Assembly (NCBI GenBank): GCA_004346725.1
Contig: SMDE01000001.1
Coordinates: 1-64,000, forward strand
DNA length: 64,000 nucleotides
DNA from: Phytobacter diazotrophicus
GTDB lineage: Bacteria > Pseudomonadota > Gammaproteobacteria > Enterobacterales > Enterobacteriaceae
Reading direction: 5' to 3'
Position numbers and translations under genes: made by a program. The notes below the pieces were generated by a model. The model did not search any database, was not told where the DNA came from, and saw only the letters and a program-made list of their open reading frames with translations. This document shows, one piece after another, positions 1,947-64,000 of the stretch; the first letter of the stretch is position 1; each line of letters starts with the position of its first letter.

Positions 1947-1961
1947 TTGCCACGTTTCAGG

Positions 1962-2038
<77 letters not shown>

Positions 2039-2162
2039 CTTTCCCTAAGTGTTCTTTTTCAAATATACTATGAAGACTTAACGCCTTCGTCGCTGGATTT
2101 GAAAAAAATACTCCCGGAAGGTTCTCCAGGCCGCAGTTGCGGCTATAGGGTTCAGTTATTTA

Positions 2163-2187
2163 AAGCCCCGATTTATCGGGGTTTTTT
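2163..2187 (+). terminator. Attenuating terminator after metY
   Basis: The hairpin CCCCGA-ttta-TCGGGG is followed by six T. It separates the tRNA from rimP. Since rimP has no clear promoter of its own, partial read-through is likely. Confidence 0.8.
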
Positions 2188-2246
2188 GTTATCTGACTAC
2201 GGAATAACTGGGCTTTACGCCCTTTTTTTATGTCTTGGGGGTGGGC

Positions 2247-2699: not shown

Positions 2700-2727
2700 C
2701 AGTCTGGATTGAGGTGAAAGGCCCCCG

Positions 2728-4215: not shown

Positions 4216-4239
4216 TAAACTGTAGCAGGAAGGAACAGC

Positions 4240-6954
4240 ATGACAGATGTAACCGTAAAAACGCTGGCCGCTGAGATTCAGACCTCTGTGGACCGCCTGG
4301 TACAGCAATTTGCTGATGCAGGGATCCGTAAGTCCGCTGAAGACTCAGTGACGGCACAAGAAAAACAGACGCTGTTAGCGCATCTGAACCGTGAACACGG
4401 CTCAGGTCCTGACAAGCTGACGTTGCAGCGCAAGACGCGTAGCACATTAAGCATTCAGGGCACCGGTGGGAAAAGTAAATCGGTGCAGATCGAAGTCCGT
4501 AAAAAACGCACCTTTGTAAAACGCGATCCACAAGAGGCGGAACGTCTCGCAGCGGAAGAAGAGGCGAAGCGTGAAGCGGAGGATAAGGCCCGTCGTGAAG
4601 CAGAGGAAGCTGCTAAGCGCGAAGCCGAGGAAAAAGCCAAACGTGATGCCGAAGAAAGAGCGAAGCGTGAAGCGGATGAAAAAGCCAAACGCGAGTCTGC
4701 TGATAAAGCAAAACGTGAAGCTGCGGAAAATAGCAAAGTGAGCAACCAACAATCTGACGAAATGACCAGGACAGCCCAGGGTGAAAAAGCCCGTCGTGAA
4801 GCTGAAGCGCAAGATCTTAAGCGCAAAGCGGAAGAGGAGGCTCGTCGTAAGCTGGAAGAAAATGCGCGTCGCGTAGCGGAAGAAGCTCGTCGCATGGCTG
4901 AGGAAAACGAATCCCGTTGGAATGCCAGCAGCGATAAAGAAGAAGAAAGCAGCGACTATCATGTAACCACTTCTCACCATGCACGCCAGGCTGAGGACGA
5001 TAGCGACCGTGAAGTCGAAGGTGGTCGTGGTCGTGGTCGTAACGCGAAAGCGGCACGCCCAGCGAAAAAAGGCAACAAGCATGCCGAAAGCAAAGCCGAT
5101 CGTGAAGAAGCCCGTGCGGCCATTCGCGGTGGTAAAGGCGGCAAACAGCGTAAAGGTTCTGCGCTGCAACAGAGCTTCCAGAAGCCTGCGCAGGCAGTTA
5201 ACCGTGACGTTGTGATCGGTGAAACGCTGACCGTTGGCGAGCTGGCTAACAAAATGGCGGTGAAAGGCTCTCAGGTCATCAAAGCGATGATGAAACTGGG
5301 CGCAATGGCCACCATCAACCAGGTTATCGACCAGGAAACCGCGCAGCTTGTAGCCGAAGAAATGGGCCACAAAGTTATCCTCCGTCGTGAAAACGAACTG
5401 GAAGAAGCGGTAATGAGCGACCGTGATACGGGTGCTGCGGCTGAACCGCGTGCGCCAGTCGTGACCATCATGGGTCACGTTGACCACGGTAAAACCTCTC
5501 TGCTGGACTACATTCGTTCAACGAAAGTAGCCTCAGGTGAAGCTGGCGGCATTACCCAGCACATCGGTGCATACCACGTCGAAACCGAAAACGGCATGAT
5601 CACCTTCCTGGATACCCCGGGCCACGCCGCGTTTACCGCGATGCGTGCACGTGGTGCGCAGGCAACGGATATCGTGGTTCTGGTTGTGGCTGCTGACGAT
5701 GGCGTGATGCCGCAAACAATCGAAGCTATCCAGCACGCAAAAGCGGCGCAGGTACCGGTTGTTGTTGCAGTGAACAAAATCGATAAGCCAGAAGCGGATC
5801 CGGATCGCGTTAAGAATGAATTGTCCCAGTACGGCATTATGCCGGAAGAGTGGGGCGGCGAAAGCCAGTTCGTTCATGTATCTGCAAAAGCGGGTACCGG
5901 TATCGACGAACTGCTCGACGCTATCCTGCTGCAGGCTGAGGTTCTTGAGCTGAAAGCTATCCGTACCGGTATGGCGAGCGGTGTTGTGATCGAATCCTTC
6001 CTGGATAAAGGTCGTGGTCCGGTTGCTTCCGTTCTGGTACGCGAAGGTACTCTGCATAAAGGCGATATCGTTCTGTGTGGCTTTGAATATGGCCGCGTAC
6101 GTGCGATGCGTGATGAGCTTGGTCGTGAAGTTAGCGAAGCGGGTCCGTCTATTCCGGTTGAAATCCTCGGCCTGTCTGGTGTTCCGGCAGCGGGTGATGA
6201 AGCGACGGTTGTTCGCGACGAGAAGAAAGCGCGTGAAGTTGCACTGTATCGTCAGGGTAAATTCCGCGAAGTCAAACTGGCGCGTCAGCAGAAATCCAAA
6301 CTGGAAAATATGTTCGCCAACATGACCGAAGGCGAAGTCCACGAAGTGAACGTCGTTCTGAAAGCGGACGTTCAGGGTTCTGTGGAAGCGATCACCGATT
6401 CTCTGCTGAAACTGTCTACTGACGAAGTGAAAGTGAAGATCGTAGGTTCCGGTGTTGGTGGTATCACCGAAACCGATGCTACCCTTGCAACGGCTTCGAA
6501 TGCCATTCTGGTTGGCTTTAACGTTCGTGCCGACGCCTCTGCGCGCCGCGTGATCGAAGCCGAAGGTCTGGATCTGCGTTACTACTCCGTCATCTATAAC
6601 CTGATCGACGAAGTGAAAGCAGCGATGAGCGGCATGCTGTCTCCGGAACTGAAACAGCAGATCATTGGTCTGGCTGAGGTTCGTGATGTGTTCAAATCAC
6701 CGAAATTCGGTGCGATCGCGGGCTGTATGGTTACCGAAGGCACGATTAAACGTCATAACCCAATCCGCGTCCTGCGTGACAACGTGGTTATCTATGAAGG
6801 CGAGCTGGAATCCCTGCGCCGCTTCAAAGATGACGTTAACGAAGTCCGTAACGGCATGGAATGTGGTATCGGCGTTAAGAACTACAACGACGTTCGCGTT
6901 GGCGATATGATCGAAGTGTTCGAAATTATCGAGATCCAACGTAGCATCGATTAA
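4240..6954 (+). CDS. infB: Translation initiation factor IF2
   Basis: This GTPase delivers fMet-tRNA to the 30S P site and promotes subunit joining. The product has 904 residues, against 890 in E. coli; the extra length is in the N-terminal Lys/Glu/Ala/Arg-rich coiled region (about 95-230). The G domain carries GHVDHGKT (412-419), DTPGH and NKID. In-frame internal starts GTG at 4738 (codon 167) and ATG at 4762 (codon 175) match the sites that give the shorter IF2 forms in E. coli. The Shine-Dalgarno AGGAAGGA precedes the main ATG. Confidence 0.97.
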
Positions 6955-7079
6955 TTTTCGTCGGCTTTTGGGCCGCTACTGTGTTGGTTACGTTCACTCA
7001 CCCCGGTCACATAGTTATCTATGCTCCCGGGGATTGATGAGCGTGCCGCCTTGCCGGAATCCCAAAAGCTTAGAAAATT
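6953..7079. repeat. ERIC (IRU) element, 127 bp, infB-rbfA
   Basis: The arms AATTTTC/GAAAATT and CTTTTGGG/CCCAAAAG enclose the ERIC core CTCACCCCGGTCAC, a TTATC turn and GCTCCCGGGG, with GTTGG and TTGCC on the flanks. It starts on the last two bases of the infB stop codon and is exactly 127 bp, the classic ERIC length. It lies within the operon transcript, so the mRNA will carry a long hairpin between infB and rbfA. Confidence 0.88.
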
Positions 7080-7090
7080 GATTAGCGTAG

Positions 7091-7117
7091 ACCGGGGAAG
7101 CGCAGCGCCACCCGGTA
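7091..7117. repeat. REP-like palindrome
   Basis: CCGGGgAAGCGCAGCGCCACCCGG has the variable-stem palindrome and GCGCAGCGCC centre of enterobacterial REP units. It lies between the ERIC and the terminator. Confidence 0.55.
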
Positions 7118-7125
7118 TGAATTTC

Positions 7126-7150
7126 AAAAGGGGCTATAAGCCCCTTTTTT
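7126..7150 (+). terminator. Terminator between infB and rbfA
   Basis: AAAAGGGGCT-ata-AGCCCCTTTTTT is a strong intrinsic terminator ending only 16 bases before the rbfA start. As in E. coli it should reduce, not abolish, read-through into rbfA-truB. Confidence 0.85.
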
Positions 7151-7166
7151 GTCTGGAGAATTTATT

Positions 7167-7571
7167 ATGGCGAAAGAATTTGGTCGCCCACAGCGCGTAG
7201 CCCAGGAGATGCAGAAAGAAATCGCCATCATCCTGCAGCGCGAAATTAAAGACCCGCGTGTTGGCATGATGACGACTGTATCGGGCGTTGAAGTCTCTCG
7301 CGATCTGGCCTATGCCAAAGTGTTTGTGACCTTCCTGAACGACAAAGATGAAGCCGCCGTTAAAGCGGGCATCAAAGCGCTGCAGGAAGCATCCGGTTTC
7401 ATCCGTACGCTGCTCGGCAAAGCTATGCGCCTGCGTATCGTGCCAGAACTGACTTTCTTCTACGACAACTCACTGGTGGAAGGGATGCGTATGTCTAACC
7501 TCGTCACCAGCGTGGTGAAACATGACGATGAACGTCGTGTGAACCCAACGGACGACAGCAAGGAGGACTGA
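7167..7571 (+). CDS. rbfA: 30S ribosome-binding factor RbfA
   Basis: RbfA binds free 30S subunits, helps to mature the 5' end of 16S rRNA and is needed for cold adaptation. The product has 134 residues (E. coli 133), is a single KH-like domain, and ends in an acidic tail (DDSKED). The ATG at 7167 is preceded by GGAG 8 bases upstream. An upstream in-frame TTG at 7149 lies in the terminator T-tract and is rejected. The stop codon overlaps the truB start (TGATG). Confidence 0.96.
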
Positions 7572-8518
7572 TGAGTCGTCCTCGTCGTCGCGGTCGCGAT
7601 GTGCACGGCGTGCTGTTGCTGGATAAACCGCAAGGCGCATCCAGCAATGATGTACTGCAAAAAGTTAAACGTCTCTTTAATGCCAATCGCGCCGGGCATA
7701 CTGGCGCGTTGGATCCTCTGGCAACAGGTATGCTACCGGTTTGTCTGGGAGAGGCGACAAAGTTCTCCCAGTATCTGCTGGATTCTGACAAGCGTTACCG
7801 TGTGGTAGCGAAGCTGGGCCAGCGCACCGATACTTCTGATGCTGATGGTCAAATTGTCGAAGAGCGTCCGGTCGATTTTAGCGCTGAGCAACTGGCCGCC
7901 GCGCTGGAGACCTTTCGCGGCGATATCGAACAAATACCCTCAATGTATTCTGCACTGAAATATCAGGGCAAAAAGCTGTATGAATACGCGCGCCAGGGTA
8001 TCGAAGTTCCACGTGAAGCCCGACCTATTACGGTGTATGAACTGTTGTTCATCCGCCACGAAGGCGATGAACTGGAACTGGAAGTTCACTGCTCGAAAGG
8101 CACCTATATTCGTACAATTGTTGACGATCTGGGTGAGAAACTGGGCTGTGGCGCACATGTGATTTATCTGCGCCGTCTGGCGGTGAGTAAATATCCTGCT
8201 GAGCGAATGGTGACGCTGGAACAATTGCATGACCTGGTCGCGCAAGCTGAGCAGCGTGATATCCCGGCGGCTCAATTACTCGATCCGTTGTTAATGCCCA
8301 TGGATAGCCCGGCAGCTGACTACCCTGTTATTAACCTTCCGTTGGCTTCGTCGGTTTACTTCCGCAACGGTAATCCTGTGCGAACAACCGGTGTGCCGCA
8401 TGAAGGTCTGGTGCGTGTCACTGAAGGTGAAGAGGCGAAATTTATCGGTATGGGCGAAATGGATGACGAAGGGCGTGTTGCTCCGCGTCGTCTGGTGGTT
8501 GAGTACCCGCCAGTCTAA
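7571..8518 (+). CDS. truB: tRNA pseudouridine-55 synthase TruB
   Basis: TruB makes pseudouridine 55 in the T-loop of nearly all tRNAs and acts as a tRNA chaperone. The product has 315 residues (E. coli 314). The catalytic motif GALDPLATG contains Asp48, and a C-terminal PUA-type domain follows. The start overlaps the rbfA stop by one base, indicating translational coupling. Confidence 0.96.
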
Positions 8519-53173: not shown

Positions 53174-54349
53174 TTAAAAAAGATGCAGCCCGGCAATGCG
53201 ATCCAGCGCGCTTTGCAATGCATCATCCCCCGCCGTCAGGCTAATGCGAATAAACCCTTCTCCCCCTGGCCCAAAGCCAGCGCCAGGCGCGACCAGCACA
53301 TGCGATTCCTGCAATAACAACTGGGCAAATTGCTGTGAGCTAAACGCGGGTGGTACCGCAAGCCACAGAAAAAAGGTGCCCTGCTTTTCGCCTACCGGCC
53401 AGCGCAGCGCCGCCAGGCGGTGTAACACACGCTCGCGGCGCTGATGATAGACCGATACCAGTTGCGCTAAACGCGCAGTGGGGAGGGTGAGCGCCGTGAC
53501 TGCCGCATCCTGAATCGCGCCAAACACGGTGCTGTAGCTGTGGGTATGCAGTTTTTTAAATGCCTTGATTATCGAGGCGTTACCGACCGCAAAACCAAAG
53601 CGCCAGCCCGCCATATTAAAGGTCTTCGAGAAGGTATACGTCTCTACTCCCCACGCTTTCGCATCAGGCTGAGAAAAGAGGCTCAGCGGAGTGTCTGCGG
53701 CATCGCTGCCAATAGCGGCATAGGCAAAATCATGCAGGATGGGCACGTGGTAACGCTGTGCAAATTGCAGTGCGCTGGCGAACAGCGCCGGTGTTGCCAG
53801 CGCACCCGTCGGGTTATGCGGATAGTTGAGGACAACCAACCCGGCATGGTCGGCAACGTCATCTGGCACGTCATTGAAATTGGGCAGGAACTGGTTTTCA
53901 GCGTGAAGCGGCAGGCCGTAAAAATGTGCCTGCGACTGCAACGCCGCCGAGCGGTAAATGGGGTAGCAGGGGTCAGTAGAAATCAGGTATTGCCCTGGAC
54001 TGAGTACCGCACGAGGGATCCCACCCACGCCGATATGCGATCCCTGAAAGACCGCCACTTCACTGTCGGGATCCAGGGTCACGCCATAATGACGCTGATA
54101 AAAGTCGGCTATCGCCTGGCGGACCTGTGGTTTGCCCCAGAATGAGGGATAACCGTGGTTTTCACGCCGCTGGATCGCCGCTTGCAGAGAGGCGATGATT
54201 TCCGGCGGCGTAGGTTGATCCGGGCTGCCGCTCGAAAGATCGATCAGCGGTAAATCGGGGGTGTTCACCTGGGCGGCCAGTTTTTCCAGTATACTGAATA
54301 AATTCTCTTCCAGCGCATCGACCAGCGGTGAGGCATTAAAATCAGGCAT
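53174..54349 (-). CDS. PLP-dependent class I/II aminotransferase
   Basis: The 391-residue protein from the ATG at 54349 has the fold-type I aminotransferase pattern: DLSSGSPDQPTPPEI near 37-51, NYPHNPTGA in the middle, DFAYAAIG, the PLP lysine in TFSKTFNMAGWRFG and the C-terminal substrate Arg in GFIRISLT. It is closest in type to PatA, DAP and methionine aminotransferases, but the substrate cannot be read from sequence. A TTG eight codons upstream is a weaker start. It is divergent from the metQ-like gene across 220 bp. E. coli has no gene of this type here. Confidence 0.85.
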   Translation of the reverse strand: MPDFNASPLVDALEENLFSILEKLAAQVNTPDLPLIDLSSGSPDQPTPPEIIASLQAAIQRRENHGYPSFWGKPQVRQAIADFYQRHYGVTLDPDSEVAVFQGSHIGVGGIPRAVLSPGQYLISTDPCYPIYRSAALQSQAHFYGLPLHAENQFLPNFNDVPDDVADHAGLVVLNYPHNPTGALATPALFASALQFAQRYHVPILHDFAYAAIGSDAADTPLSLFSQPDAKAWGVETYTFSKTFNMAGWRFGFAVGNASIIKAFKKLHTHSYSTVFGAIQDAAVTALTLPTARLAQLVSVYHQRRERVLHRLAALRWPVGEKQGTFFLWLAVPPAFSSQQFAQLLLQESHVLVAPGAGFGPGGEGFIRISLTAGDDALQSALDRIAGLHLF

Positions 54350-54513
54350 GGTTTTCTCGAATTGATTTATCAATATGTTTCCATCTTTAATTTATTTTTG
54401 TGGATTGTCTAAGCAACAAAATTAGCTATTCATTGTCGATTTTTAGATATGAATTTCCTGATTATATTTATGCTAAAAAAGCAAAATGAAATCCGGTAAT
54501 GTGACTTACAACG

Positions 54514-54537
54514 CACAGTCGGCTGTGATTTAATCAC
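54514..54537. promoter_or_regulatory. Overlapping palindromes upstream of the metQ-like gene
   Basis: CACAG-tcgg-CTGTG (54514-54527) overlaps GTGAT-tta-ATCAC (54525-54537), a perfect 13-bp palindrome 32 bp before the start codon. It is a plausible operator for a cluster regulator, with some likeness to CRP- or FNR-type half-sites but with wrong spacing for CRP. No MetJ box tandem is seen in this gap. Confidence 0.4.
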
Positions 54538-54569
54538 TTTTAATTGCACACCAACAGGAAAATTGCGTT

Positions 54570-55376
54570 ATGAAAAAGCCAGTTGTATTAGGTTTTGTCT
54601 TTGCTTTGTTGTCATCATCTTCTTTTCTGGCTGCGGCGCAGGATAATATTATTCGTGTTGGCTTTAATCCAGGACCCTATAAAGAACAGTTTGAAAAAGG
54701 TGTCGCACCTTTTCTGATTAAGAAAGGCTATAAAGTCGAATATAAAGATTTCAGCGATGGTATTCAGGTAAACGATGCGGTTGCCCGTGGCAACATCGAA
54801 GCTAATATCATGCAGCATCCGGTGTATTTAAAATCGGTGAATGAGCGTCTGGGGATCGACAACATCGGTATCGTGCAGGTGCCCACACCGCCAATGGGGC
54901 TGTATGGCGGTAAAATCAAAACGCTGAAAACCCCGGCGGCAGGCACAGTGATTTCTGTTCCTAATCAGCCACCTAATGAATATCGTGCCCTGTTAGTGCT
55001 GCAAAGCCTTGGCTGGGTAAAACTCAAACCAGACAGCGACCCGGCCACCTTCTCGCAGCGTAATATCCTCGAAAATCCGTATAAAATTGTCCTCAAAGAG
55101 ATGGATAACGCCCAGCAGGTACGTGCGCTGCCAGATGTGGATTACGGTTTGATTCAGGGGAATTTTGCCGTCTCCAGCGGCCTGAAACTTAATTCGGCAT
55201 TACAGCTTGAAACCCCGGTGAGCCAGTTTATAAACGTTGTCACCATCGCCGGGAAAAATAAAGACGCGCAGTTTGCTAAAGATATTGTTGCCGGATATCA
55301 CTCAGCCGATTTCAAAAATTACATTCTGACTCACGAGCAATATAACGGTTATCTGCAACCTGATTATTTGAAATGA
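54570..55376 (+). CDS. MetQ/NlpA-family substrate-binding protein without lipobox
   Basis: The 268-residue protein is the periplasmic receptor of a methionine-type ABC importer (family NlpA/MetQ). A signal peptide ends AxA (LAAA, cleavage near residue 23). There is no cysteine in the whole protein, so it cannot be a lipoprotein as typical MetQ is. Family blocks are VGFNPGPYKEQ, EYKDFSDGIQVNDAV, NIEANIMQHPVYL, and PNQPPNEYRALLVLQSLGW. It overlaps the next gene by 4 bases. Its base composition is more AT-rich than the genes that follow. The ligand may be methionine, a sulfoxide, or another derivative. Confidence 0.88.
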   Translation: MKKPVVLGFVFALLSSSSFLAAAQDNIIRVGFNPGPYKEQFEKGVAPFLIKKGYKVEYKDFSDGIQVNDAVARGNIEANIMQHPVYLKSVNERLGIDNIGIVQVPTPPMGLYGGKIKTLKTPAAGTVISVPNQPPNEYRALLVLQSLGWVKLKPDSDPATFSQRNILENPYKIVLKEMDNAQQVRALPDVDYGLIQGNFAVSSGLKLNSALQLETPVSQFINVVTIAGKNKDAQFAKDIVAGYHSADFKNYILTHEQYNGYLQPDYLK

Positions 55377-56398
55377 ACGATGCAATGATTGAGTTTCGCC
55401 ATGTCAGTAAAACATTCTCCAGAAAAGGAAACCCGGTTCTGGCATTAAAGGACATTAACCTTAGTATTGCTAAGGGCGATATTTTCGGGATTATTGGTTA
55501 TAGCGGTGCAGGGAAAAGTACCTTGCTACGTTTAATCAATCGTCTCGAATCGCCAGGCCAGGGAGAGGTGGTCATTAATGGCGAAGTGTTACAGGAATTT
55601 AGCGGTAAGCGTCTGCGTGCCATCAAGAAAGATATTGGCATGATCTTTCAGAACTTTAATTTGCTCAATTCAAAAACGGTTTTTCACAATGTGGCCATTC
55701 CGCTCATTTTACAGGGGCGTGATAAGGCGTTTATTCAGGCACGCGTGACGGAGCTGCTGGAGTTCGTCAATCTCAGCGATAAGGTGCATAGCTTCCCGAA
55801 CGAGTTGTCAGGCGGGCAAAAACAGCGTGTCGGTATCGCCCGTGCGCTGGCGACTAACCCGTCAGTCCTGTTGTGTGATGAGGCGACATCGGCGCTGGAT
55901 CCCCATACCACAGTGCAGATCTTACTACTGTTGCAGGAGATCAACCGCCGCTATGGCATCACTATCGTGCTGATTACTCACGAAATGTCGGTAATCCAGA
56001 AAATCTGTAACAAGGTCGCGGTGATGCAAAACGGCAGCATTGTGGAGCAGGGCGACGTTTTTAACCTGTTTGCCCAGCCGCAGCATCCGGTCACCGCCAG
56101 TTTCGTGCAGTCGGTGATTCACGACAAGCTGCCGGAGCGCGTCTCCGCTGTGCTGCAACGGGATAACGGCGCGCAGGCCCTGCGTCTTGAGTTTGTGGGC
56201 GCAACGGCGCAACAGCCCATTATCAACCGCATCATCAAGGACTATGCCATCGAGGTGAATATCCTCTTTGCCAGCATGTCCGAAGTCCAGAGCCGCATTC
56301 TGGGGTTCATGATCGTACAGATTCTTGGCGAGCCTGAGCAAACCGGGCGCGCCATTGCCCATCTTCGCGACGCAGGAGTGAAAATCACCCATGTTTGA
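55373..56398 (+). CDS. MetN-type ABC transporter ATPase with NIL domain
   Basis: The 341-residue protein is the ATPase of the importer. Walker A is GYSGAGKST (42-50), the signature LSGGQKQR is near 145, Walker B is LLCDEATSALD, and the switch His lies in LITHEM. The C-terminal NIL domain (about 260-341) is the ligand-binding domain that in E. coli MetN gives trans-inhibition by internal methionine. Its presence suggests the same feedback here. It overlaps both neighbours (4 and 8 bases), typical of a coupled operon. Confidence 0.93.
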   Translation: MNDAMIEFRHVSKTFSRKGNPVLALKDINLSIAKGDIFGIIGYSGAGKSTLLRLINRLESPGQGEVVINGEVLQEFSGKRLRAIKKDIGMIFQNFNLLNSKTVFHNVAIPLILQGRDKAFIQARVTELLEFVNLSDKVHSFPNELSGGQKQRVGIARALATNPSVLLCDEATSALDPHTTVQILLLLQEINRRYGITIVLITHEMSVIQKICNKVAVMQNGSIVEQGDVFNLFAQPQHPVTASFVQSVIHDKLPERVSAVLQRDNGAQALRLEFVGATAQQPIINRIIKDYAIEVNILFASMSEVQSRILGFMIVQILGEPEQTGRAIAHLRDAGVKITHV

Positions 56399-57059
56399 TT
56401 TTATTGACACCGCCGTCACCGGCGATCAATTCCTGCTGGCATTGCATGACACCCTGGTGATGATCGCTGTTTCGCTGGGTTTCGGTTCGCTGCTCGGTAT
56501 TCCGCTGGGTATTGTGCTGGTGGTTTGCCGCCCAGGCGGCATTCTGCCCAACCGATTTGTGCACCAGGTGCTGAACCCAACAATCAACGTTGTCCGCTCG
56601 CTGCCGTTTATTATTTTGCTGATTACCATTCTGCCCTTCACCCGTCTGGTGGTGGGCACCACTATTGGTACGGCGGGTGCGATTGTGCCGCTGATTGTCT
56701 TTATTGCCCCCTATATTTCCCGGCTGGTGGAAAGCTCGCTGCTGGAGGTGGACGAGGGGATCCTCGAAGCCGCCGATGCCATGGGCGCCACCGCTTTACA
56801 GACCATCTGGCACTTTATGCTGCCGGAAGCCGCGTCATCTCTGATCCTGGCCCTCACGACCGCCACCATTGGCCTGCTGGGGGCGACCGCCATGGCCGGC
56901 ACCGTGGGCGGCGGCGGTATCGGCGATTTGGCCATTACCTATGGTTACCAGCGCTTTGATGCCTTCGCCACGCTGGTCACCGCGCTGGTGCTGATTGTCA
57001 TTGTCCAGCTTATCCAGACCCTCGGAACCCGCTTTGCCCGCCGTATTCGTCGCGAGTAA
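56391..57059 (+). CDS. MetI-type ABC transporter permease
   Basis: The 222-residue inner-membrane permease has five hydrophobic segments. The EAA coupling loop reads GILEAADAMGATALQTIWHFMLPEA with the conserved glycine, as in MetI. Residues SLPFIILLITILPFTRLVVGTTIGT match the family. It overlaps the ATPase gene by 8 bases. It completes a QNI set in binding protein-ATPase-permease order, unlike E. coli metNIQ. Confidence 0.93.
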   Translation: MFDFIDTAVTGDQFLLALHDTLVMIAVSLGFGSLLGIPLGIVLVVCRPGGILPNRFVHQVLNPTINVVRSLPFIILLITILPFTRLVVGTTIGTAGAIVPLIVFIAPYISRLVESSLLEVDEGILEAADAMGATALQTIWHFMLPEAASSLILALTTATIGLLGATAMAGTVGGGGIGDLAITYGYQRFDAFATLVTALVLIVIVQLIQTLGTRFARRIRRE

Positions 57060-57090
57060 GGCCGCTATTTCATCTATTCAGGAGATAAAC

Positions 57091-57546
57091 ATGCCAGTTG
57101 TAGAGAGCTTTACCCTCGACCATACCAAAGTCAAAGCCCCGTATGTCCGCGTGGCAGGTTATGAACGTCACCGGCTTGGCAGCGTGGTGCAGAAGTTTGA
57201 TTTACGTTTCCTGCAACCTAACGTGGATGCCATTCCCACTGCGGCGCTGCACACCCTGGAGCACCTGCTGGCATTTGGCCTGCGTGAAGAGCTGGAAGGA
57301 GTTATCGACATTTCGCCGATGGGCTGCCGCACCGGTTTCTATCTGATCCTGTGGGATGAGCACGATCCGAAACACATCGCGACGGCGCTGACCCGTGTCC
57401 TGCAGCGTGTGCTTACCGCAACGGATGTGCCTGCGGTCACACCGCTTGCCTGCGGCAACTATCGCGATCATTCGCTGTTCTCCGCTCAGGAGTACGCGAA
57501 GCTGGTGCTGGAAGCCGGTATCAGTGATGACCCGTTTCGGGAATAA
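57091..57546 (+). CDS. LuxS-family S-ribosylhomocysteine lyase, short form
   Basis: LuxS cleaves S-ribosylhomocysteine to homocysteine and DPD, the AI-2 precursor. The 151-residue protein from the ATG at 57091 (AGGAG 6 bases upstream) keeps the key residues: Ser6, His11, Arg39, metal ligands His54, His58 (HTLEH) and Cys121 (ACGNY), base Glu57 and catalytic Cys79 in GCRTGFY. Enterobacterial housekeeping LuxS has about 171 residues and a different N-terminal half; this protein is nearer the Bacillus length and type. One change is Leu41 where FDxRFCQPN is usual. An upstream in-frame start (56995) lies inside the permease gene. Confidence 0.9.
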   Translation: MPVVESFTLDHTKVKAPYVRVAGYERHRLGSVVQKFDLRFLQPNVDAIPTAALHTLEHLLAFGLREELEGVIDISPMGCRTGFYLILWDEHDPKHIATALTRVLQRVLTATDVPAVTPLACGNYRDHSLFSAQEYAKLVLEAGISDDPFRE

Positions 57547-57549
57547 GCG

Positions 57550-58311
57550 ATGATTGCCCTTGATTTTAGCGGCCAGACCGCGGTGGTGACGGGCGGTCTA
57601 CAGGGCATCGGTAAAGCCATTGCGCAACTGTTGCATCGGGGCGGCGCGAACGTAGTGATCGGTGATATCGCCGCCAGAGCGCGGGAGCAGAGCCTGCGCC
57701 AGTTGGTGCTACGTACCGATGTTGCCTCGCGTGAACAGGCCCATCAGCTCATTGGCGCCGCCGTGGAGACTTTCGGCGGCGTGGACATCCTGGTCAACAG
57801 TTGCGGCGTCTCGGCGATGAGCGCGGTCGATGCCATGAGCGAGGCGGACTGGCAGCGCATCCTGGATGTGAACGTCAAAGCGATTGGCTGGCTCTCTGAG
57901 GCGGCCATTCCGCTGATGCGGGCCAGAAAGGCGGGACGCATCATCAACATCGCCTCGCAGGCGGGCAAAAATGGCTACCGGCTAATGGGCCAGTACGTGG
58001 CCTCTAAACATGCGGTACTCGGCCTGACCAAAGTGATGGCCATTGAGCTTGCCCGTGACAATATTCTGGTGAATGCGGTCTGCCCCGGCATTGTCGAGAC
58101 GGAGATGAAGTGGCGCGAGCGTCGGGAAGGCGCAGCGCTGCGCGGCATGACGCCGGAAGCCATCTATGCCGAAGACTGCTCGCAGGTATTACTGGGTCGC
58201 ACGGCGCAGCCAGCCGATGTAGCTGGCGTGGTGGCGTTTTTGGCGAGCCCGCTGGCGGCCTATATGACCGGGCAGGCGATTAATGTGACCGGTGGGATGA
58301 CGATGCATTAA
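57550..58311 (+). CDS. Short-chain dehydrogenase/reductase
   Basis: The 253-residue classical SDR has the cofactor motif TGGLQGIG (14-21), NSCGV, catalytic Ser in NIASQAG, and YVASK with the Tyr-x3-Lys pair. The C-terminal end MTGQAINVTGGM is typical. A likely acidic residue in VVIGDIA points to NAD(H). It starts 3 bp after the luxS-like stop, so it is translated with it. The substrate is unknown; reduction or oxidation of DPD or another keto product of the pathway is only a guess. Confidence 0.9.
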   Translation: MIALDFSGQTAVVTGGLQGIGKAIAQLLHRGGANVVIGDIAARAREQSLRQLVLRTDVASREQAHQLIGAAVETFGGVDILVNSCGVSAMSAVDAMSEADWQRILDVNVKAIGWLSEAAIPLMRARKAGRIINIASQAGKNGYRLMGQYVASKHAVLGLTKVMAIELARDNILVNAVCPGIVETEMKWRERREGAALRGMTPEAIYAEDCSQVLLGRTAQPADVAGVVAFLASPLAAYMTGQAINVTGGMTMH

Positions 58312-58454
58312 AAACCTGCCCATCAGGCTATCTCATTTGCCATTTTGGCGCAGGGCAGTGCTCACAATCCTCACGTACTTCATGTACGTTCTGGTTGTTG
58401 CGCGCTGTCCGGGTCCAGACTGCCTGCAACCATAACTACCTGATTTACAGGTTT
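58312..58454. repeat. 143-bp nested inverted-repeat element
   Basis: The outer arms AAACCTG-ccc-ATCAGG (from 58312) pair with CCTGAT-tta-CAGGTTT (to 58454). The inner arms GGGCAGTG and CGCTGTCC pair, and the tip is CACGTAC-ttca-TGTACG. It begins right after the dehydrogenase stop codon and fills nearly all of the 160-bp gap. It resembles ERIC in architecture but lacks the ERIC core, so it is a different family. Confidence 0.65.
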
Positions 58455-58471
58455 TATATCGAGGTATCACC

Positions 58472-60796
58472 ATGAAACCCGAGCAACTTGCGGTAATGCA
58501 CTGGGGAACCTATCGGGTGACCACCGATGACGGCAAACTGACTGCGGTCAGCCCGGTTGCGTGGGACAGCAACCCGTCACGTATTGGGCAGTCGTTGCCG
58601 GGCGCGGTGCAGGGGACATCACGCGTTCGTCGCCCGGCAGTGCGGGAAGGGTTTCTGAAAGGGGGCGGCGTCAGCCGGGAGGGGCGCGGGCGTGAACCCT
58701 TTGTCGAATTGAGCTGGGAGCAGGCGTTGACGCTGGTGGCCGATGAACTCACCAGGGTTAAAGGCGAGCAGGGCAATGCGGCGATTTATGGCGGCTCTTA
58801 TGGCTGGTCCAGCGCCGGACGTTTTCATCATGCGCAGAGCCAGCTTCACCGTTTTCTCAATCTCTTTGGCGGCTACACCGGCAGCACCAACACTTACAGT
58901 ATCGCCGCCGGGGAGCGTATTTTGCCGCACATTCTTGGCGATCTCGACACCTTACAACGCCAGCACACCCACTGGCCGGTACTGGCGGAACACTGCCAAC
59001 TGTTTGTCGCCATCGGTGGCTTGCCGCTGCGTAATGCGCAGGTTAACGGCGGCGGGGCCAACGACCACGCGCTACAGCACTGGTTGCAAACGTTGCGCCG
59101 CAACGGTACCCGTTTCATCAATATCAGCCCGGTACAAAACGATCTTTCGGCCGTGCCGGATGCCGACTGGCTGGCGGTCAAACCCGGCAGCGATACGGCG
59201 TTGCTGCTGGCGCTCTGCCAGGTGCTGATTGCCGACGCGTTATACGACCAGGCCTTTGTCGACAGCCACACGGTCGGGTTCGCGCCATACCGGGATTATC
59301 TCTTTGGCCGGGACGACGGCGTAGTAAAAAGCCCGGAATGGGCCGAGTCCAGAACCGGACTCGCTGCCGGGGTGATTCGCCAGTTGGCACATGAGATGGC
59401 ACAGCATCGCACGATGATCAACATTGCCTGGTCGGTTCAGCGTGCCCGTCAGGGGGAACAGACTTTCTGGGCGACAGTGGCGTTAACCGCACTGTTGGGG
59501 CAGATTGGCACTCCCGGCGGTGGGCTGGGCTTCGGCTACGCCTCGACCAACCTGGCGGGGGCCGACCGTCGCGTCTTTTCCGGCCCGCGTTTGCCCCAGG
59601 GGCGCAATCCGGTTGAGGGGAAAATTCCGGTTGCCCGATTTTCCGACATGCTGCTGCACCCCGGCGAACCCTATGAATTTGACGGGCAGACCCACCTTTA
59701 CCCCGATATTCGCTTTGTCTACTGGGCGGGCGGCAATGTCTTTCATCACCATCAGGATCTGAACAAGCTGGTACGCGCCTGGCGGCGCCCGGAAACCATT
59801 GTGGTCCACGAGCAGTACTGGACCGCACAGGCTAAATTCGCCGATATCGTCCTGCCCGCCACCACTTCGCTTGAGCGGGAGGATATCGGCAGCGCCAGCA
59901 ACGACGGTTTTATGATTGCCATGCGCCAGCATATTGCGCCGTTTGCCGATGCGCGTGACGACTATGCCATTTTCAGCGGGCTGGCGGCCCGTCTCGGGTT
60001 TGGTGAGGCTTACACCGAAGGGCGGGACGCCAGAGCATGGCTGGAGGTTATGTATGAGCAGTCGCGCCCCCGTGCCGAGGCAGATGGGATCGCGCTCCCG
60101 CCGTTCGATACGTTCTGGCAGCAGGGCGTTCTGGAATTTTCGCGCCCCGTCCGGCCGCAGATCCTGCTTAAAGATTTTCGCGACGACCCGCTGAACGCGC
60201 CCATTGCCACCCCTTCCGGAAAAATTGAGCTTTTTTCGCAGGCCATTGCCGATTTTGGCTACGAAGAGTGTCCGGGGCATCCGTACTGGCACGAGCCGGA
60301 GGCGCAATATCAGCAGGCGCTCGCCCGCGAATGGCCGCTGCATTTGCTCTCCAGCCAGCCGCGTACCCGCCTGCACAGCCAGTACGACCACGGCAGCGTA
60401 AGTCGGGAGACCAAAATCGCCGGGCGTGAACCACTGTGGATGCATCCGCATGATGCCGCTGAGCGCGACATTCACGACGGCGAAGTGGTGAAAGTGTTCA
60501 ATACGCGAGGTGCGTTACTGGCTGGGGTGAAACTGAGCGAGGCCATCCGGCCCGGCGTGGTGCAGATGTCCACCGGCGCCTGGTATGATCCGCAGAATAC
60601 AGAAGATGCGCAGCCACTCGATAAACATGGCAATCCCAACGTTTTAACAGAAGATCGCGGCAGTTCGCGTCTGGGGCAAGGATGCAGCGCGCAGAGTTGT
60701 CGGGTGGACGTGGTGAAGTTTGAAGGGCCGTTACCGGCGATAACGGCCTGGGAACCGCCTGTTTTTGTCACGCTCGCGCAACAAAAACAGGCCTGA
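58472..60796 (+). CDS. BisC-like molybdopterin oxidoreductase
   Basis: The 774-residue protein belongs to the DMSO reductase family, group of biotin sulfoxide reductase BisC (777 in E. coli) and TorA. It lacks a Tat signal and an N-terminal iron-sulfur motif, so it is a cytoplasmic one-subunit enzyme like BisC. The Mo-ligand region reads GSYGWSSAGRFHHAQ with the candidate Ser. Other family blocks are VFHHHQDLNKL, VVHEQYWTAQAKFADIVLPATT and LLSSQPRTRLHSQYDHG. E. coli BisC also reduces methionine sulfoxide, which would fit a methionine-type importer in the same operon. GAGGT precedes the ATG. Confidence 0.9.
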   Translation: MKPEQLAVMHWGTYRVTTDDGKLTAVSPVAWDSNPSRIGQSLPGAVQGTSRVRRPAVREGFLKGGGVSREGRGREPFVELSWEQALTLVADELTRVKGEQGNAAIYGGSYGWSSAGRFHHAQSQLHRFLNLFGGYTGSTNTYSIAAGERILPHILGDLDTLQRQHTHWPVLAEHCQLFVAIGGLPLRNAQVNGGGANDHALQHWLQTLRRNGTRFINISPVQNDLSAVPDADWLAVKPGSDTALLLALCQVLIADALYDQAFVDSHTVGFAPYRDYLFGRDDGVVKSPEWAESRTGLAAGVIRQLAHEMAQHRTMINIAWSVQRARQGEQTFWATVALTALLGQIGTPGGGLGFGYASTNLAGADRRVFSGPRLPQGRNPVEGKIPVARFSDMLLHPGEPYEFDGQTHLYPDIRFVYWAGGNVFHHHQDLNKLVRAWRRPETIVVHEQYWTAQAKFADIVLPATTSLEREDIGSASNDGFMIAMRQHIAPFADARDDYAIFSGLAARLGFGEAYTEGRDARAWLEVMYEQSRPRAEADGIALPPFDTFWQQGVLEFSRPVRPQILLKDFRDDPLNAPIATPSGKIELFSQAIADFGYEECPGHPYWHEPEAQYQQALAREWPLHLLSSQPRTRLHSQYDHGSVSRETKIAGREPLWMHPHDAAERDIHDGEVVKVFNTRGALLAGVKLSEAIRPGVVQMSTGAWYDPQNTEDAQPLDKHGNPNVLTEDRGSSRLGQGCSAQSCRVDVVKFEGPLPAITAWEPPVFVTLAQQKQA

Positions 60797-60800
60797 TGCC

Positions 60801-62000
60801 TTACTGAACGGCGGCGAAGGCTGAGGCCACGCGACCGATATTGCTGTGGTTAAGGCCCGCCACGCAGACGCGGCCGCTGGCAATCAGGTAGACCCCAAAG
60901 GCTTCGCGCAGTTTATCCACCTGTTCAGCGCTGAACCCGGTGTAACTGAACATCCCGCGCTGGGTCAGCAGGTAGGTAAAGTCGTGCGTCGGCAGGGCAT
61001 CTTTGAGGACATCCACCAGCGCCTGGCGCATTTCGCTGATGCGAGTGCGCATGGCGTCCACTTCGGCACGCCACAGGGCGTTAAGCTCCGGGTCATTGAG
61101 CACCGTGGAGACGACCTGCGCGCCAAAATTCGGCGGGCTGGAGTAGTTGCGACGTACGGTGGCTTTCAACTGGCCCAGCACGCGTCCGGCGGCGTCAGCA
61201 TCTTCACACACCACGGACAGCCCACCCACGCGCTCGCCATACAGCGAGAATATTTTGGAGAAGGAATTGCTGACCAGCGCAGGCAGGCCGGTGCTGGCGA
61301 TAGCGCGAATGGCGTAGGCATCATCTTCCAGACCCGCGCCAAAGCCCTGATAGGCAATGTCGAGGAACGGGATCAGATCGCGGGAAATCAGCACCTCAAT
61401 CACTTCATCCCACTGCGCATTCGTCAGATCCGCGCCCGTCGGGTTGTGGCAGCACGGGTGGAGCAGCACGATACTGCGCGGCGGCAGTTGTTTTAAGCTG
61501 TTGAGCATGCCGCTGAAATCGACACCGCGCGTGGCGTTATCGAAGTACGGGTAGGTGTGAACCTTAAACCCGGCACCGGCAAAAATAGCGATATGGTTTT
61601 CCCAGGTCGGATCGCTGACCCACACCCCGGAGTCCGGGAAGTAGCGTTTCAGGAAATCGGCACCCACTTTCAGCGCGCCGGAACCGCCCAGCGTCTGGAT
61701 GGTGGCGATACGCCCGGCGTTCAGTGCCGGATGGTTGTCGCCAAACAGCAGCGTCTGAATGGCGCTGCGATAAGGGGCGAAACCTTCCATCGGCAGATAG
61801 AGGCTGGCTTTTTGCGGCTGGCTCTGCAGGCGGGTTTCGGCCTGTTGTACTGCCTTAAGGCAAGGAATGATAGCCTGCTCGTCATAATACAGCCCGATGC
61901 TAAGGTTCACTTTGTCAGTACGGGTGTCCTGATGGAAAGTCTCCATCAACGACAGGATAGGATCGCCCGCGTAGGCGTCAACGTTCTGGAACACAGTCAC
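60801..62000 (-). CDS. TyrB/AspC-family aromatic aminotransferase
   Basis: The 399-residue protein is a fold-type I, subgroup Ialpha aminotransferase of TyrB/AspC length. It starts [20 protein letters not shown]. It has [24 protein letters not shown], the PLP lysine in [16 protein letters not shown] and a C-terminal Arg in [11 protein letters not shown]. It is a paralog of housekeeping TyrB, which lies elsewhere in enterobacteria. The substrate is probably an aromatic or methionine keto-acid pair. It follows the YitT-like gene by 32 bp and is convergent with the molybdoenzyme gene (4-bp gap). Confidence 0.9.
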
Positions 62001-62032
62001 TACTCCTGATATTACTGTCAGAGGTCAATCCA

Positions 62033-62647
62033 TTACACCGCATAGCGTCCCGGGCGGTGGTTCATGGCAATAATGGAATTCAGAATCACGGCGCCCACAA
62101 TGGAGGCCGCCAGCATCGGCAGGCTCACGAAGAACAGCGATGCGGTCACAATGCAGGCATCGACCACCATCTGGAATTTACCGGCGCGGATACCGCTTTT
62201 ATCCTGCAGATAGAGCGCCAGAATATTCACGCCGCCGAGACTCGCTTTATGACGGAACAGCACCACAAAACCAATGCCGACCATGATGTTGCCAAACAGC
62301 GTGGCGTAGTAGGGGTTAAGCTGATCGAAATGGATAAAGCGCCCGTGCAGATCGGAGAACAACGACACCAGCGCCACGGCGCAGAACGTTTTCAGCGTGA
62401 ACTGCATGCCCATCCGGCGAACAGAGAGCCAGTAAAAGGGCAGGTTGATCAAAAAGAACGCCACGCCAAACGGCAGGTGAGTCGCGTAATGGATCAGAAA
62501 AGCGATACCCGCCGTACCGCCAGTGAGCGCGCCCGCCTGGCGAAACATTATCACGCCAAAAGAGATCATTAGCGTACCGAACAGCAGCGCCAGCGCATCT
62601 TCCAGCCAGGTATGAGCAAGTTTATTGGGAGTCAGGACGTTATCCAT
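62033..62647 (-). CDS. YitT-family membrane protein
   Basis: The 204-residue inner-membrane protein has five or six hydrophobic segments. The marker sequence is FGVIMFRQAGALTGGTAGIAFLI near 32-54, with GIGFVVLFRHKASLGGVNILALYLQ near 122-146, and the family is DUF161/YitT-type. It probably transports a small molecule, but no substrate is known. It is in an operon with the TyrB-like gene. The 251-bp gap to the regulator gene shows nothing beyond likely promoter sequence. Confidence 0.82.
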   Translation of the reverse strand: MDNVLTPNKLAHTWLEDALALLFGTLMISFGVIMFRQAGALTGGTAGIAFLIHYATHLPFGVAFFLINLPFYWLSVRRMGMQFTLKTFCAVALVSLFSDLHGRFIHFDQLNPYYATLFGNIMVGIGFVVLFRHKASLGGVNILALYLQDKSGIRAGKFQMVVDACIVTASLFFVSLPMLAASIVGAVILNSIIAMNHRPGRYAV

Positions 62648-62898
62648 AAGAAAGTACGATTCAACAATTGCTAAAGATAAGAAATATCCTGCAAAAACCG
62701 CACCAGATCCGCTTCCTGATGCGATTGAATGTAGGAAAAACAGGCGGCCATGTCGCTAACGTATTGATATGGCAAAAAGAGAATGTTGCGTGTTTTGTGC
62801 GTTTTCGTGCTGTTATTCGGTTGAGATGTGTATTTTTGTCTCACCGGATACATTAATTAACCGATTGATTGCACCAAAATAAGGCGCGTTGCCCTGTC

Positions 62899-63378
62899 TT
62901 AGGGCGCAAGACTACTACCCGGCATCAACTGGCCATTCTCTTTCAGGCGGTTAAGGACAACCGAGGTTTTCAAATGAGCGACCCCTTTATTTTGCGCCAG
63001 AATATGGCTGATTAAATGGCTCAGGCCTGGCAAATCCGGCACGGCTACCCTGAGCAGGTAATCGGCATCGCCCGTGGTTTTCCAGGCATCCAGAATCGCG
63101 TCCACTTCGCTCACCATCTGGTGGAAACTTTCCACATACTCCTGCGTGTGGTTTAAAAGACGCACCTCAATCAGACCCAGCATCTCGCGCCCGGCGGCAT
63201 CCGGTGCAAGCCGCGCATGGTAGCCCAGAATCAGTTGCGCCTGCTCCAGCGCGATACGACGCCGTGAACACTGGGAAGCAGAAAGGCCGATGAGATCGCT
63301 CAGCTCCTGGTTAGTTAAACGGCCATTGGCCTGCAACAAGGTGAGGATTTTCAGATCAAAGTCGTCGATGTTATACAT
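62899..63378 (-). CDS. Lrp/AsnC-family transcriptional regulator
   Basis: The 159-residue protein from the ATG at 63378 has an N-terminal helix-turn-helix (DFDLKILTLLQANGRLTNQE, then IGLSASQCSRRR) and a C-terminal RAM ligand domain (about 65-145; AWKTTGDADYLLRVAVPD). Such regulators sense amino acids, so it is the natural candidate to control the permease, the YitT/TyrB-like pair or both. A TTG three codons upstream is a poorer start; no strong Shine-Dalgarno is visible. A short GCCCT/AGGGC hairpin overlaps the stop codon. Confidence 0.9.
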   Translation of the reverse strand: MYNIDDFDLKILTLLQANGRLTNQELSDLIGLSASQCSRRRIALEQAQLILGYHARLAPDAAGREMLGLIEVRLLNHTQEYVESFHQMVSEVDAILDAWKTTGDADYLLRVAVPDLPGLSHLISHILAQNKGVAHLKTSVVLNRLKENGQLMPGSSLAP

Positions 63379-63713
63379 GTGCGCCAATACCGGAACGAAA
63401 GAGTGGCTACCAGACTAACAGCTTTTTTGATGACGAGAAGCCTGACGGCGCTGCGCTTTTTTGCGCTGCACCAAAACGGTTCGATTTCATGCATGCAGAG
63501 GCTGTTTTTCTCATACATCGTGCGATTTAAGCGTATTTATTGCGCGAAGTTGCTGAAAATTCAATCGCCGCGCTCAAGCTGTGGATGTGACTGGAAATTT
63601 ATATCTCCCGCTTATTCAGATAGTTAGCCTGCCATTGTCGTGTTCTCCCCGCTGGCTGGCCTGAAAGTTGCTCTGGCCGAAGGTGACGTTTACAGACAGG
63701 GGAGAGGTCAGAG
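63379..63713. other. Divergent promoter region of regulator and permease
   Basis: This 335-bp gap contains no gene. Two close direct copies of GCGCTGC occur at about 63448-63473 around a T-run. Just before the permease start, GGGGAGAGGTCAGAG gives a purine-rich ribosome site. No operator can be assigned by eye. Confidence 0.4.
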
Positions 63714-64000
63714 GTGGCAGCACAACACACTAACGAATTAAAACGCGGGTTAAAAAACCGTCATATCCAGTTGATTGCGCTCGGTGGGGCCGTAGGCACC
63801 GGGCTTTTTTTGGGCATTGCGCAGACCATTCGCATGGCCGGGCCGTCCGTACTGTTGGGGTACGCCATCGCCGGGGTGATTGCTTTTTTCATTATGCGCC
63901 AGCTCGGTGAAATGGTGGTTGAAGAGCCAGTGGCGGGCTCTTTCAGCCATTTTGCCAACCGCTACTGGGGACCTTTTGCCGGATTTATGTCCGGCTGGAA
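63714..64000 (+). CDS. AroP/PheP-like aromatic amino acid permease, 5' part
   Basis: The gene is cut by the window end; 95 codons and part of a 96th remain. From the GTG at 63714 the protein shows ELKRGLKNRHIQLIALGG, GTGLFLGIAQTIRMAGP and MRQLGEMVVEEPVAGSFSHF, the APC-superfamily signature shared by AroP and PheP. It probably imports phenylalanine, tyrosine or tryptophan with protons, which fits the aromatic-type aminotransferase nearby. The divergent Lrp-type gene is its likely regulator. Which of AroP or PheP it is closer to cannot be settled from this part. Confidence 0.88.
   Translation, partial: MAAQHTNELKRGLKNRHIQLIALGGAVGTGLFLGIAQTIRMAGPSVLLGYAIAGVIAFFIMRQLGEMVVEEPVAGSFSHFANRYWGPFAGFMSGW

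Follow-up and report, generated by a model that had tools for sequence, protein, structure and literature searches.

The window analyzed here—64,000 nucleotides of Phytobacter diazotrophicus DNA—ends in a region (53174–64000) in which genes for a methionine-type importer and a LuxS-family enzyme lie among those for aminotransferases, a molybdoenzyme and a permease, and we asked whether these genes serve a single pathway, as a sequence-only reading had proposed. The gene families and their tight spacing were as described there (open reading frames [ORFs], Pfam and NCBIfam), and synteny with E. coli indeed halts at ygjR: the E. coli match spans sstT-alx-ygjR, homology picks up again at rlmG/ygjP (about C1:67.4 kb), and a search of the E. 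coli collection with 54.5–60.8 kb of the window gave no close hit. ORFs, domain assignments and synteny divide the region into two unrelated parts, a module at 53174–60796 and a right-hand part made up of AT2, YitT, Lrp and AroP.

In the module, AT1 (53174–54373, minus strand; Pfam/NCBIfam and synteny), a class I/II PLP aminotransferase of the PRK08068/BacF-like type, is divergent from a plus-strand series assigned by Pfam/NCBIfam: Q (54570–55376; Pfam and alignment), a MetQ/NlpA-family binding protein; N (55373–56398), a MetN-like ABC ATPase with a NIL domain; I (56391–57059), a MetI-like permease; LuxS2 (57091–57546; also tree and alignment), a Firmicutes-type S-ribosylhomocysteine lyase; SDR (57550–58311), a classical short-chain dehydrogenase and proposed DPD reductase; and a BisC-family molybdoenzyme (58472–60796), an S/N-oxide reductase that is an enteric addition to the module. 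Q and N overlap by 4 bp and N and I by 8 bp; gaps of 31, 3, and 160 bp separate I from LuxS2, LuxS2 from SDR, and SDR from BisC, respectively. Beyond these lie a second TyrB-like aromatic aminotransferase, AT2 (60801–62000, minus strand; NCBIfam), a YitT-family membrane protein (62033–62647, minus; Pfam), an Lrp/AsnC-type regulator (62899–63387, minus; Pfam), and an AroP-like amino-acid permease (63714–64000, plus; ORF) that is cut by the window edge and is full length in locus L121; synteny places all four outside the module.

Indeed, all four are absent from five of nine enteric module loci (19–19.5 kb read) and are therefore not counted in the pathway; on the same synteny we reject the whole right half as a single pathway. 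In the Firmicutes module loci we found no match to AT2, YitT or Lrp, and one AroP-like match (45%, about 3 kb from LuxS in L074). The proposal of one pathway for the whole region is thus supported for AT1, the importer, LuxS, SDR and—in six of nine enteric loci—BisC, and unsupported for AT2, YitT, Lrp and AroP: by the test of co-occurrence in other genomes, the core passes and the right-hand part fails.

The importer–LuxS–SDR unit, now enlarged by AT1, is co-conserved in unrelated genomes. Cohnella, Paenibacillus and their relatives have AT1, QNI, LuxS and SDR as a set, to which a GldA/YbdH-type dehydrogenase and an S-adenosylhomocysteine (SAH) nucleosidase (Pfs) are often added. Among 80 LuxS loci, Q lay within 8 kb of LuxS in 35 and the complete Q, N and I set in 25, SDR was found at this distance in 29 and QNI plus SDR in 20, and in 44 none of the three importer genes came that close to LuxS. 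AT1 lay inside the same 8 kb in 14 loci, Pfs in 13, and the dehydrogenase in nine, all nine with AT1; gene order varies among loci. These are tblastn counts, used in place of gene calls, which were longest ORFs and lost LuxS to an overlapping ORF in Paenibacillus loci L007, L009, and L010. Within the enterics, AT1 is present in 9/9 module loci (in two pieces in L004), and BisC, where it directly follows SDR, does so after gaps as short as 2 bp (L115; 19 bp in L116, 16 bp in L117). L118 and L119 lack both SDR and BisC, and L004 lacks BisC; the sole BisC match in Firmicutes loci is distant (26%, L021).

LuxS2 passed the cut-offs of PF02664 (167.1 versus 27 bits) and NF002606 (227.5 versus 208). 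Aligned to B. subtilis LuxS (1ie0), it keeps the HTLEH motif, which we take to be the metal site, and two cysteines, presumably those of the active site, as well as Ser6, Phe7, His11, Lys35, Arg39, Arg65, and Asp78, which we assume to hold S-ribosylhomocysteine (SRH). The same genome encodes a second, canonical LuxS at C1:547085, which the earlier reading did not mention. LuxS2 shares 71–77% identity with LuxS from Cohnella, Paenibacillus, Bacillus, and Sporosarcina and 43–48% with canonical enteric LuxS; the tree joins the eight LuxS2 rows from enterics in a single fork (99/96), separate from the 22 canonical rows, and 9 of 392 genomes of the family possess it. As best explanation, these data suggest that the module was acquired horizontally, LuxS2 being of the Firmicutes type; jointly with the function proposed below, we rate this as leaning toward probable. 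Carriage on a plasmid was rejected, with no plasmid match at E 1e-45.

As to function, we propose—with slightly more confidence than doubt—that 53174–60796 is a catabolic module for homocysteine thioethers carrying a 5-deoxyribosyl group. Both the pocket of Q and the extra nucleosidase favor the previously suggested import of a homocysteine-derived thioether. Q, N and I have the expected NlpA/MetQ, ABC-NIL, and permease domains, and the NCBIfam cut-offs for MetN (375.9 versus 499.7), MetQ (90.1 versus 374), and MetI (191.3 versus 212) were missed. In NmMetQ, R156, N213, and N238 are reported to hold the amino and carboxyl groups of the ligand, and Y81, F98, H100, and Y103 to pack against the methionine thioether (PMC6739813). 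The window Q keeps the former (Arg139, Asn198, Asn222) and has Gly64 at the Tyr81 and Met81 at the Phe98 position, the pocket positions aligning without gaps.

This exchange goes with LuxS linkage. In 45 Q rows with LuxS within 5 kb—related proteins rather than independent samples—the Tyr81 position holds Gly in 40, Pro in two, Asp in two, Ser in one, and Tyr in none. Unlinked Q proteins have Tyr in 41/59 and Gly in 2/59, one of the latter in this genome (first set, n = 24: Tyr 17, Gly 2, Glu 2, Asn 2, Ala 1; second, n = 27: Tyr 22, Glu 4, Ser 1; third, n = 8: Tyr 2, Asn 4, Leu 2, Gly 0). The first two sets were drawn from the best 30 loci of 40 and 39 places; the third comprises eight full-length places without a locus, checked against a bias toward high-scoring canonical Q. 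Unlinked status was assigned by contig positions, and for G1128–G1135 by about 6 kb of flank without a LuxS match, two of these regions ending at a contig edge. A Tyr-type Q in L058, 6.8 kb from LuxS, was counted as unlinked. The counts omit duplicate loci of the own genome, P. ursingii duplicates, exact duplicates, and the fragmented Q of L004 (the G028 record; likewise, L003 is the L113 record), and treat the near-identical pairs L025/L026 and L069/L081 as separate; a Fisher's test on them takes no account of relatedness and was set aside. The linked rows are not one clade: five changes are needed on the tree, five being forced by starred branches.

The same pattern weighs against the alternative that survives best, which we nonetheless consider unlikely: a methionine-regulon cluster, with an importer for methionine, methionine sulfoxide or D-methionine, LuxS and Pfs performing ordinary SAM recycling, and a shared methionine response holding the genes together. 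Such a cluster would leave the loss of the thioether-packing Tyr in linked, and rarely in unlinked, MetQ-family proteins to be accounted for, and the gene set sits in hosts equipped with MetQ paralogues, LuxS and Pfs of their own. To our knowledge, SDR, AT1, and the Fe-ADH are not methionine-cycle enzymes, which we also count against it. On the other side, both Cohnella and all ten Paenibacillus genomes tested have the cluster LuxS as their only LuxS, so that it may be the housekeeping enzyme there, and a MetE-core gene lies near LuxS in 12/80 loci.

T-boxes ahead of a GAF-N-I-Q-LuxS-SDR run (L059) and of a MetE-core gene that itself precedes LuxS-SDR-Q (L045) may speak for a shared methionine response, as does the methionine T-box reported for L. 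paracasei yxjH-luxS (PMC6004538). Conversely, in seven Firmicutes loci scanned, neither the importer nor LuxS was preceded by an Rfam leader, the sole match being a SAM riboswitch (S-box) between LuxS and MetE-core, upstream of the latter, in L013. MetJ control was rejected as well, with no box pair upstream of Q in eight enteric upstream regions; single boxes with two mismatches occur in the window, L113, and L115, and L116 has one with one mismatch and a distant one with two. Riboswitch control at the window was discarded, there being no Rfam match at 52–64 kb.

A candidate operator is the palindrome GTGATTTAATCAC (54525–54537) in the AT1–Q intergenic region, found whole in the window only; its 11-base core GTGATTTAATC is kept in seven of eight aligned enteric upstream regions (not L116). 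The promoter scan returned 0 sigma-70-like sites versus 4.1 expected from shuffles, a count that gives no basis for placing promoters. The region has about double the number of terminator-like sites seen in shuffles (20 versus 9.5 expected); two plus-strand matches (58373–58389 and 58438–58452) fall in the SDR–BisC gap, and BisC may therefore be transcribed apart in the window.

As for the remaining enzymes, AT1 fell short of the PRK08068 cut-off (425.8 versus 494), which Cohnella AT1 passes with 533.8; its best solved relative is 6l1l (listed as Aminotransferase), presumably Bacillus BacF. The BisC-family protein carries PF00384, PF01568, and PF18364, did not pass TIGR00509 (949.1 versus 1017.55 bits), and is 41% identical to its nearest paralogue in the same genome. 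Acetoin/diacetyl reductases are among the nearer relatives of SDR. The cluster Pfs is an extra copy: another full-length Pfs was present in 12/12 tested genomes with a cluster Pfs, and a single Pfs in three without, all tested genomes being module-bearing. The nearest Phytobacter homologue of the Fe-ADH (51% identical) lies on another contig, where no surrounding ORF matched window Q, I, LuxS or AT1.

In the proposed catabolic module, Q-N-I would import SAH or SRH, with Q holding the amino-acid end as MetQ does and Gly, in place of the thioether-packing Tyr, leaving room for the sugar. In enterics, BisC might reduce the sulfoxide of the imported thioether. Pfs—the additional gene of the Firmicutes clusters, or the one copy that Phytobacter has—would hydrolyze SAH to SRH, LuxS2 would split SRH into homocysteine (for methionine) and DPD, and SDR would reduce this reactive diketone. 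The GldA/YbdH-type dehydrogenase, where present, may work further on reduced DPD or on an oxo acid. Least certain of all is what AT1 acts on, with homocysteine or the corresponding 2-oxo acid as candidates; neither AT1 nor the dehydrogenase fits clearly into the scheme. Of note, the canonical LuxS of Phytobacter should already handle cytosolic SRH, which counts against this reading of the cluster. Also on that side are the 44 LuxS loci without nearby importer genes, the enteric loci that lack SDR or BisC, and the two unlinked Gly-type Q proteins.

Improbably, the imported compound could be a different thioether amino acid of some bulk, for instance S-ribosylcysteine or a conjugate of plant or Maillard type, to which LuxS2, with Pfs in Firmicutes, is adapted. 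The conserved Arg/Asn residues constrain only the amino-acid end of the ligand, and a canonical LuxS is already present in the enteric host, both compatible with this idea; the seven residues presumed to hold SRH, which LuxS2 keeps besides the catalytic ones, argue against it. An AI-2 quenching or signaling device, in which LuxS2 makes DPD, SDR modifies it and the importer is a mere neighbor, could invoke LuxS–SDR proximity (29/80 loci) and the SDR QQ-2 as precedent (PMC4942472), yet it is very unlikely given that importer and LuxS are linked in Firmicutes as well as in enterics, that DPD has no groups to pair with the amino-acid-binding residues retained in Q, and that L118 and L119 retain importer and LuxS without SDR.

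A broader form of the catabolic reading is possible, if somewhat less than probable: an undescribed pathway that eats extracellular SAH/SRH by an altered MetQ-type importer, a dedicated nucleosidase, LuxS, and an SDR that detoxifies the AI-2 precursor DPD, the pocket Tyr apparently having been lost more than once in step with LuxS linkage, and LuxS acting as a nutrient scavenger with AI-2 removed as it is made. Most discussion of LuxS treats it as a maker of signals. Methylation leaves SRH and SAH as waste, and bacteria that have Pfs without LuxS are expected to lose SRH. A dedicated uptake route, if true, would turn methylation waste into a shared nutrient and give LuxS a role that is neither signaling nor housekeeping recycling; the paired SDR would be a concrete candidate for a DPD-clearing enzyme, bearing on the old question of AI-2 as signal versus by-product. 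At a practical level, proteins annotated as methionine-binding may be sorted by a single residue, the Gly/Tyr position.

Known systems resemble parts of the module. AT1 resembles the Bacillus BacF aminotransferase (6l1l) at family level only. The window BisC belongs with the BisC-type sulfoxide reductases in the S/N-oxide reductase family TIGR00509, but scores below the family cut-off and is placed behind a thioether-import operon. For the proposed DPD step of the window SDR, the metagenomic SDR QQ-2 serves as a precedent: action on AI-2 or a furanone analogue of it is reported, with very low activity and in a paper unable to show the AI-2 product, the comparison being one of reported role (PMC4942472). 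With the MetNIQ importer, Q-N-I has in common all three components and the Arg/Asn/Asn of amino-acid binding, whereas its Q has Gly for the thioether-packing Tyr and all three proteins stay below the MetN, MetQ, and MetI cut-offs. Finally, the LuxS branch of the activated methyl cycle (Pfs-LuxS-MetE/H) employs the same enzymes, Pfs and LuxS, with the same expected products, homocysteine and DPD; in the module, however, LuxS is linked to a changed-pocket importer, SDR, and an aminotransferase, and in enterics it is a second LuxS in hosts that already possess the cycle.

The gene order sstT-alx-ygjR follows E. coli up to ~53.07 kb of the window, where synteny ends as the sequence-only reading had placed it, and E. 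coli homology picks up again at rlmG/ygjP (~67.4 kb of contig C1). Between the two lie an aminotransferase gene (AT1; 53174–54373, minus strand), divergent from a run encoding a MetNIQ-like importer (Q, 54570–55376; N, 55373–56398; I, 56391–57059), a LuxS-family enzyme (LuxS2; 57091–57546), an SDR (57550–58311) and a BisC-like molybdoenzyme (58472–60796), followed by AT2, YitT, Lrp, AroP and a third aminotransferase. ORF calls and profile searches recovered every gene named from the sequence alone, in the family stated. We found no near match to 54.5–60.8 kb in the E. coli collection searched; by LuxS search, the closest named locus is in Phytobacter ursingii (LuxS 97% identical). A palindrome, GTGATTTAATCAC (54525–54537), occurs once in the window, 5′ of Q, and its 11-base core is retained in seven of eight aligned enteric upstream regions.

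Among 392 genomes of the family, nine enteric loci carry LuxS2. All nine have Q, N, I and AT1, counting L004, a poor assembly in which these four are fragmentary or partial; SDR is present in seven, BisC in six, and a GldA/YbdH-type dehydrogenase adjoins the module in five. YitT and Lrp occur in four of the nine, AT2 and AroP in three, Phytobacter only, and Firmicutes loci yielded a single AroP-like hit for these right-hand genes (L074). Hence, the single pathway proposed for the region is supported for importer, LuxS, SDR and BisC but not for AT2-YitT-Lrp-AroP, a separate neighbor; the unit ends earlier on the right than had been proposed and takes in AT1 on the left. For enterics, BisC was correctly counted in, since SDR and BisC are 2, 19 and 16 bp apart in three non-Phytobacter loci, although the window's own 160-bp gap contains two terminator-like matches. 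AT2 (TyrB-like), YitT, Lrp, the AroP-like permease and the third aminotransferase (60801–64000, continuing at 1715–4972 of fetched locus L121) seem to form an amino-acid cluster of their own, inserted at the same place. In Enterobacter sp. EA-1 (L004 and G421), the canonical luxS matches as three fragments with a stop, and the genes for Q, AT1 and YitT are broken up as well—likely sequencing error, as the assembly is an estimated 49% complete.

The module extends beyond enterics. The best 80 LuxS loci comprise 78 non-enteric ones, mostly from Firmicutes (four, L040, L042, L043 and L047, come from Bacteroidota). Of these 80, 35 have Q no farther than 8 kb from LuxS, and 25 have all three of Q, N and I in that range; the corresponding counts are 29 for SDR, 14 for AT1, 13 for a SAH/MTA nucleosidase (Pfs), 12 for a MetE-core gene, nine for the dehydrogenase and one for BisC, and 44 had none of Q, N and I; QNI with SDR recurs in 20, bearing out the co-occurrence expected from the window. 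With two to six MetQ-family matches per genome (11 genomes), such proximity to LuxS would, by rough estimate, arise by chance in just a few per cent of loci. Arrangements differ between hosts: in Cohnella and several Paenibacillus, Pfs-FeADH-I-N-AT1-Q (FeADH being the dehydrogenase) runs divergently from LuxS-SDR; L014, L020, L024 and L036 have N-I-LuxS-SDR-Q-Pfs; and Sporolactobacillus has AT1-SDR-FeADH-N-I-Q-LuxS. That the set is kept together despite changing order argues for a shared function. Five Sporolactobacillus and lactobacillar loci also encode, at or near the module start, a small protein (cluster c29; GAF-domain by Pfam in L037, 3643–4116), a possible sensor.

LuxS2 itself has a Firmicutes connection, as does the module. 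It shares 71–77% identity with its counterparts in Cohnella, Paenibacillus, Bacillus and Sporosarcina versus 43–48% with canonical enteric LuxS, and in the LuxS tree its eight enteric rows form one fork (support 99/96) on the Firmicutes side, split 100/100 from 22 canonical enteric rows. The surrounding forks are weak and the tree's bootstrap had not converged, and we therefore name no donor; donor searches used LuxS alone, the nearest non-enteric relatives of the other genes being known only from LuxS-fetched loci. At E 1e-45, order-level (394 genomes) and phylum-level (398 genomes) samples each returned LuxS2 in one genome, the window's own, and a plasmid search found no copy.

The importer's binding protein offers a clue to the substrate. 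Aligned to NmMetQ (PMC6739813), the window Q retains the equivalents of R156, N213 and N238, which hold the amino and carboxyl groups, and of H100 and Y103, but has Met at F98 and Gly at Y81, the other two of the four residues that pack on the thioether. Where LuxS lies within 5 kb (linked Q, n = 45), the Y81 position is Gly in 40, Pro in two, Asp in two, Ser in one and never Tyr. Unlinked Q proteins of the window's genome and module-bearing Firmicutes genomes (n = 24) have Tyr in 17, Gly, Glu and Asn in two each and Ala in one (one Tyr-type, L058, sits 6.8 kb from LuxS). A control of 27 distinct unlinked proteins, from 14 genomes chosen for lacking Q, N and I near LuxS at the examined locus, gave Tyr 22, Glu 4, Ser 1 and Gly 0; one control genome also bears a linked Q at another locus (L045, included in the linked set above). 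Eight more full-length unlinked Q from both searches (Tyr 2, Asn 4, Leu 2) bring the unlinked set to 59 (Tyr 41, Gly 2, others 16). The alignments examined cover six distinct MetQ-family proteins of solved structure, and every one has Tyr at this position. Linked Q proteins do not group as a single clade, the tree requiring five changes, all five forced by starred branches; at the chosen thresholds, linked groups differ from Tyr-type proteins at three shared columns, of which the Y81 position is the cleanest. Gly here would leave space for a large group on the sulfur, whatever its identity. Within the module of genome G329 sits another Q-N-I set, accompanied by a 2-oxoglutarate/Fe(II) oxygenase (L117, 3228–6547); the window's genome has this combination on its own (L175, 5551–8852; contig C6). 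In each case Q carries Gly in the thioether pocket, at the Y81 position, and the combination may be another thioether-scavenging unit.

Beyond gene content and residue pattern, everything is inferred. Uptake of a methionine- or homocysteine-derived compound was a sound proposal from the sequence alone, and the Q residue pattern and extra Pfs narrow the substrate, with moderate confidence, to SAH or SRH. Genomes with a cluster Pfs carry a second full-length Pfs elsewhere in 12 of 12 tested (all such loci but L041, and module-bearing genomes only); where the cluster lacks Pfs, the module genome has a single copy (three of three tested), as does the window's. In cluster-Pfs species this points to SAH, because the nucleosidase adjoins the importer and SRH would need none. 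LuxS2 retains HTLEH and both cysteines, differing from B. subtilis LuxS by a five-residue gap and scattered changes elsewhere. Both Cohnella and all ten tested Paenibacillus genomes carry just one LuxS, which may therefore have a housekeeping role in these hosts.

The SDR carries the Gly-rich and YxxxK motifs and an Asp closing the second strand, which we take to mark the NADH type. Its nearer solved and curated relatives include acetoin and diacetyl reductases, with curated cut-offs not reached. We propose that it reduces DPD, the LuxS co-product, as DPD is a vicinal diketone like diacetyl; QQ-2, a metagenomic SDR, reportedly uses the furanone form, at a rate that is very low and with no product demonstrated (PMC4942472). 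SDR is missing from L118 and L119, where a LysR regulator, a YdjG-related aldo-keto reductase and an MFS transporter adjoin the module (5184–8497 and 5130–8321, respectively); we give this reductase no weight because it lies beyond the oppositely directed LysR gene. AT1 accompanies the dehydrogenase wherever the latter occurs (9/9 among the best 80 LuxS loci, 5/5 enteric loci), and the pair could, at a guess, convert an amino acid via its 2-oxo acid to a 2-hydroxy acid.

In the PMC literature, outside which most subscription journals fall, searches turned up no paper describing a LuxS-linked transporter that imports SAH or SRH, nor one on an additional LuxS in Phytobacter. One study reports luxS in each of 97 strains of Kluyvera and Phytobacter, the available text mentioning no second copy (PMC10991690), and a survey of 36 genomes that placed LuxS within an operon in six of them names no such gene set in its available part (PMC5029033). 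A methionine T-box is described for yxjH-luxS of L. paracasei (PMC6004538), and MetR control is predicted for canonical luxS (PMC4239095).
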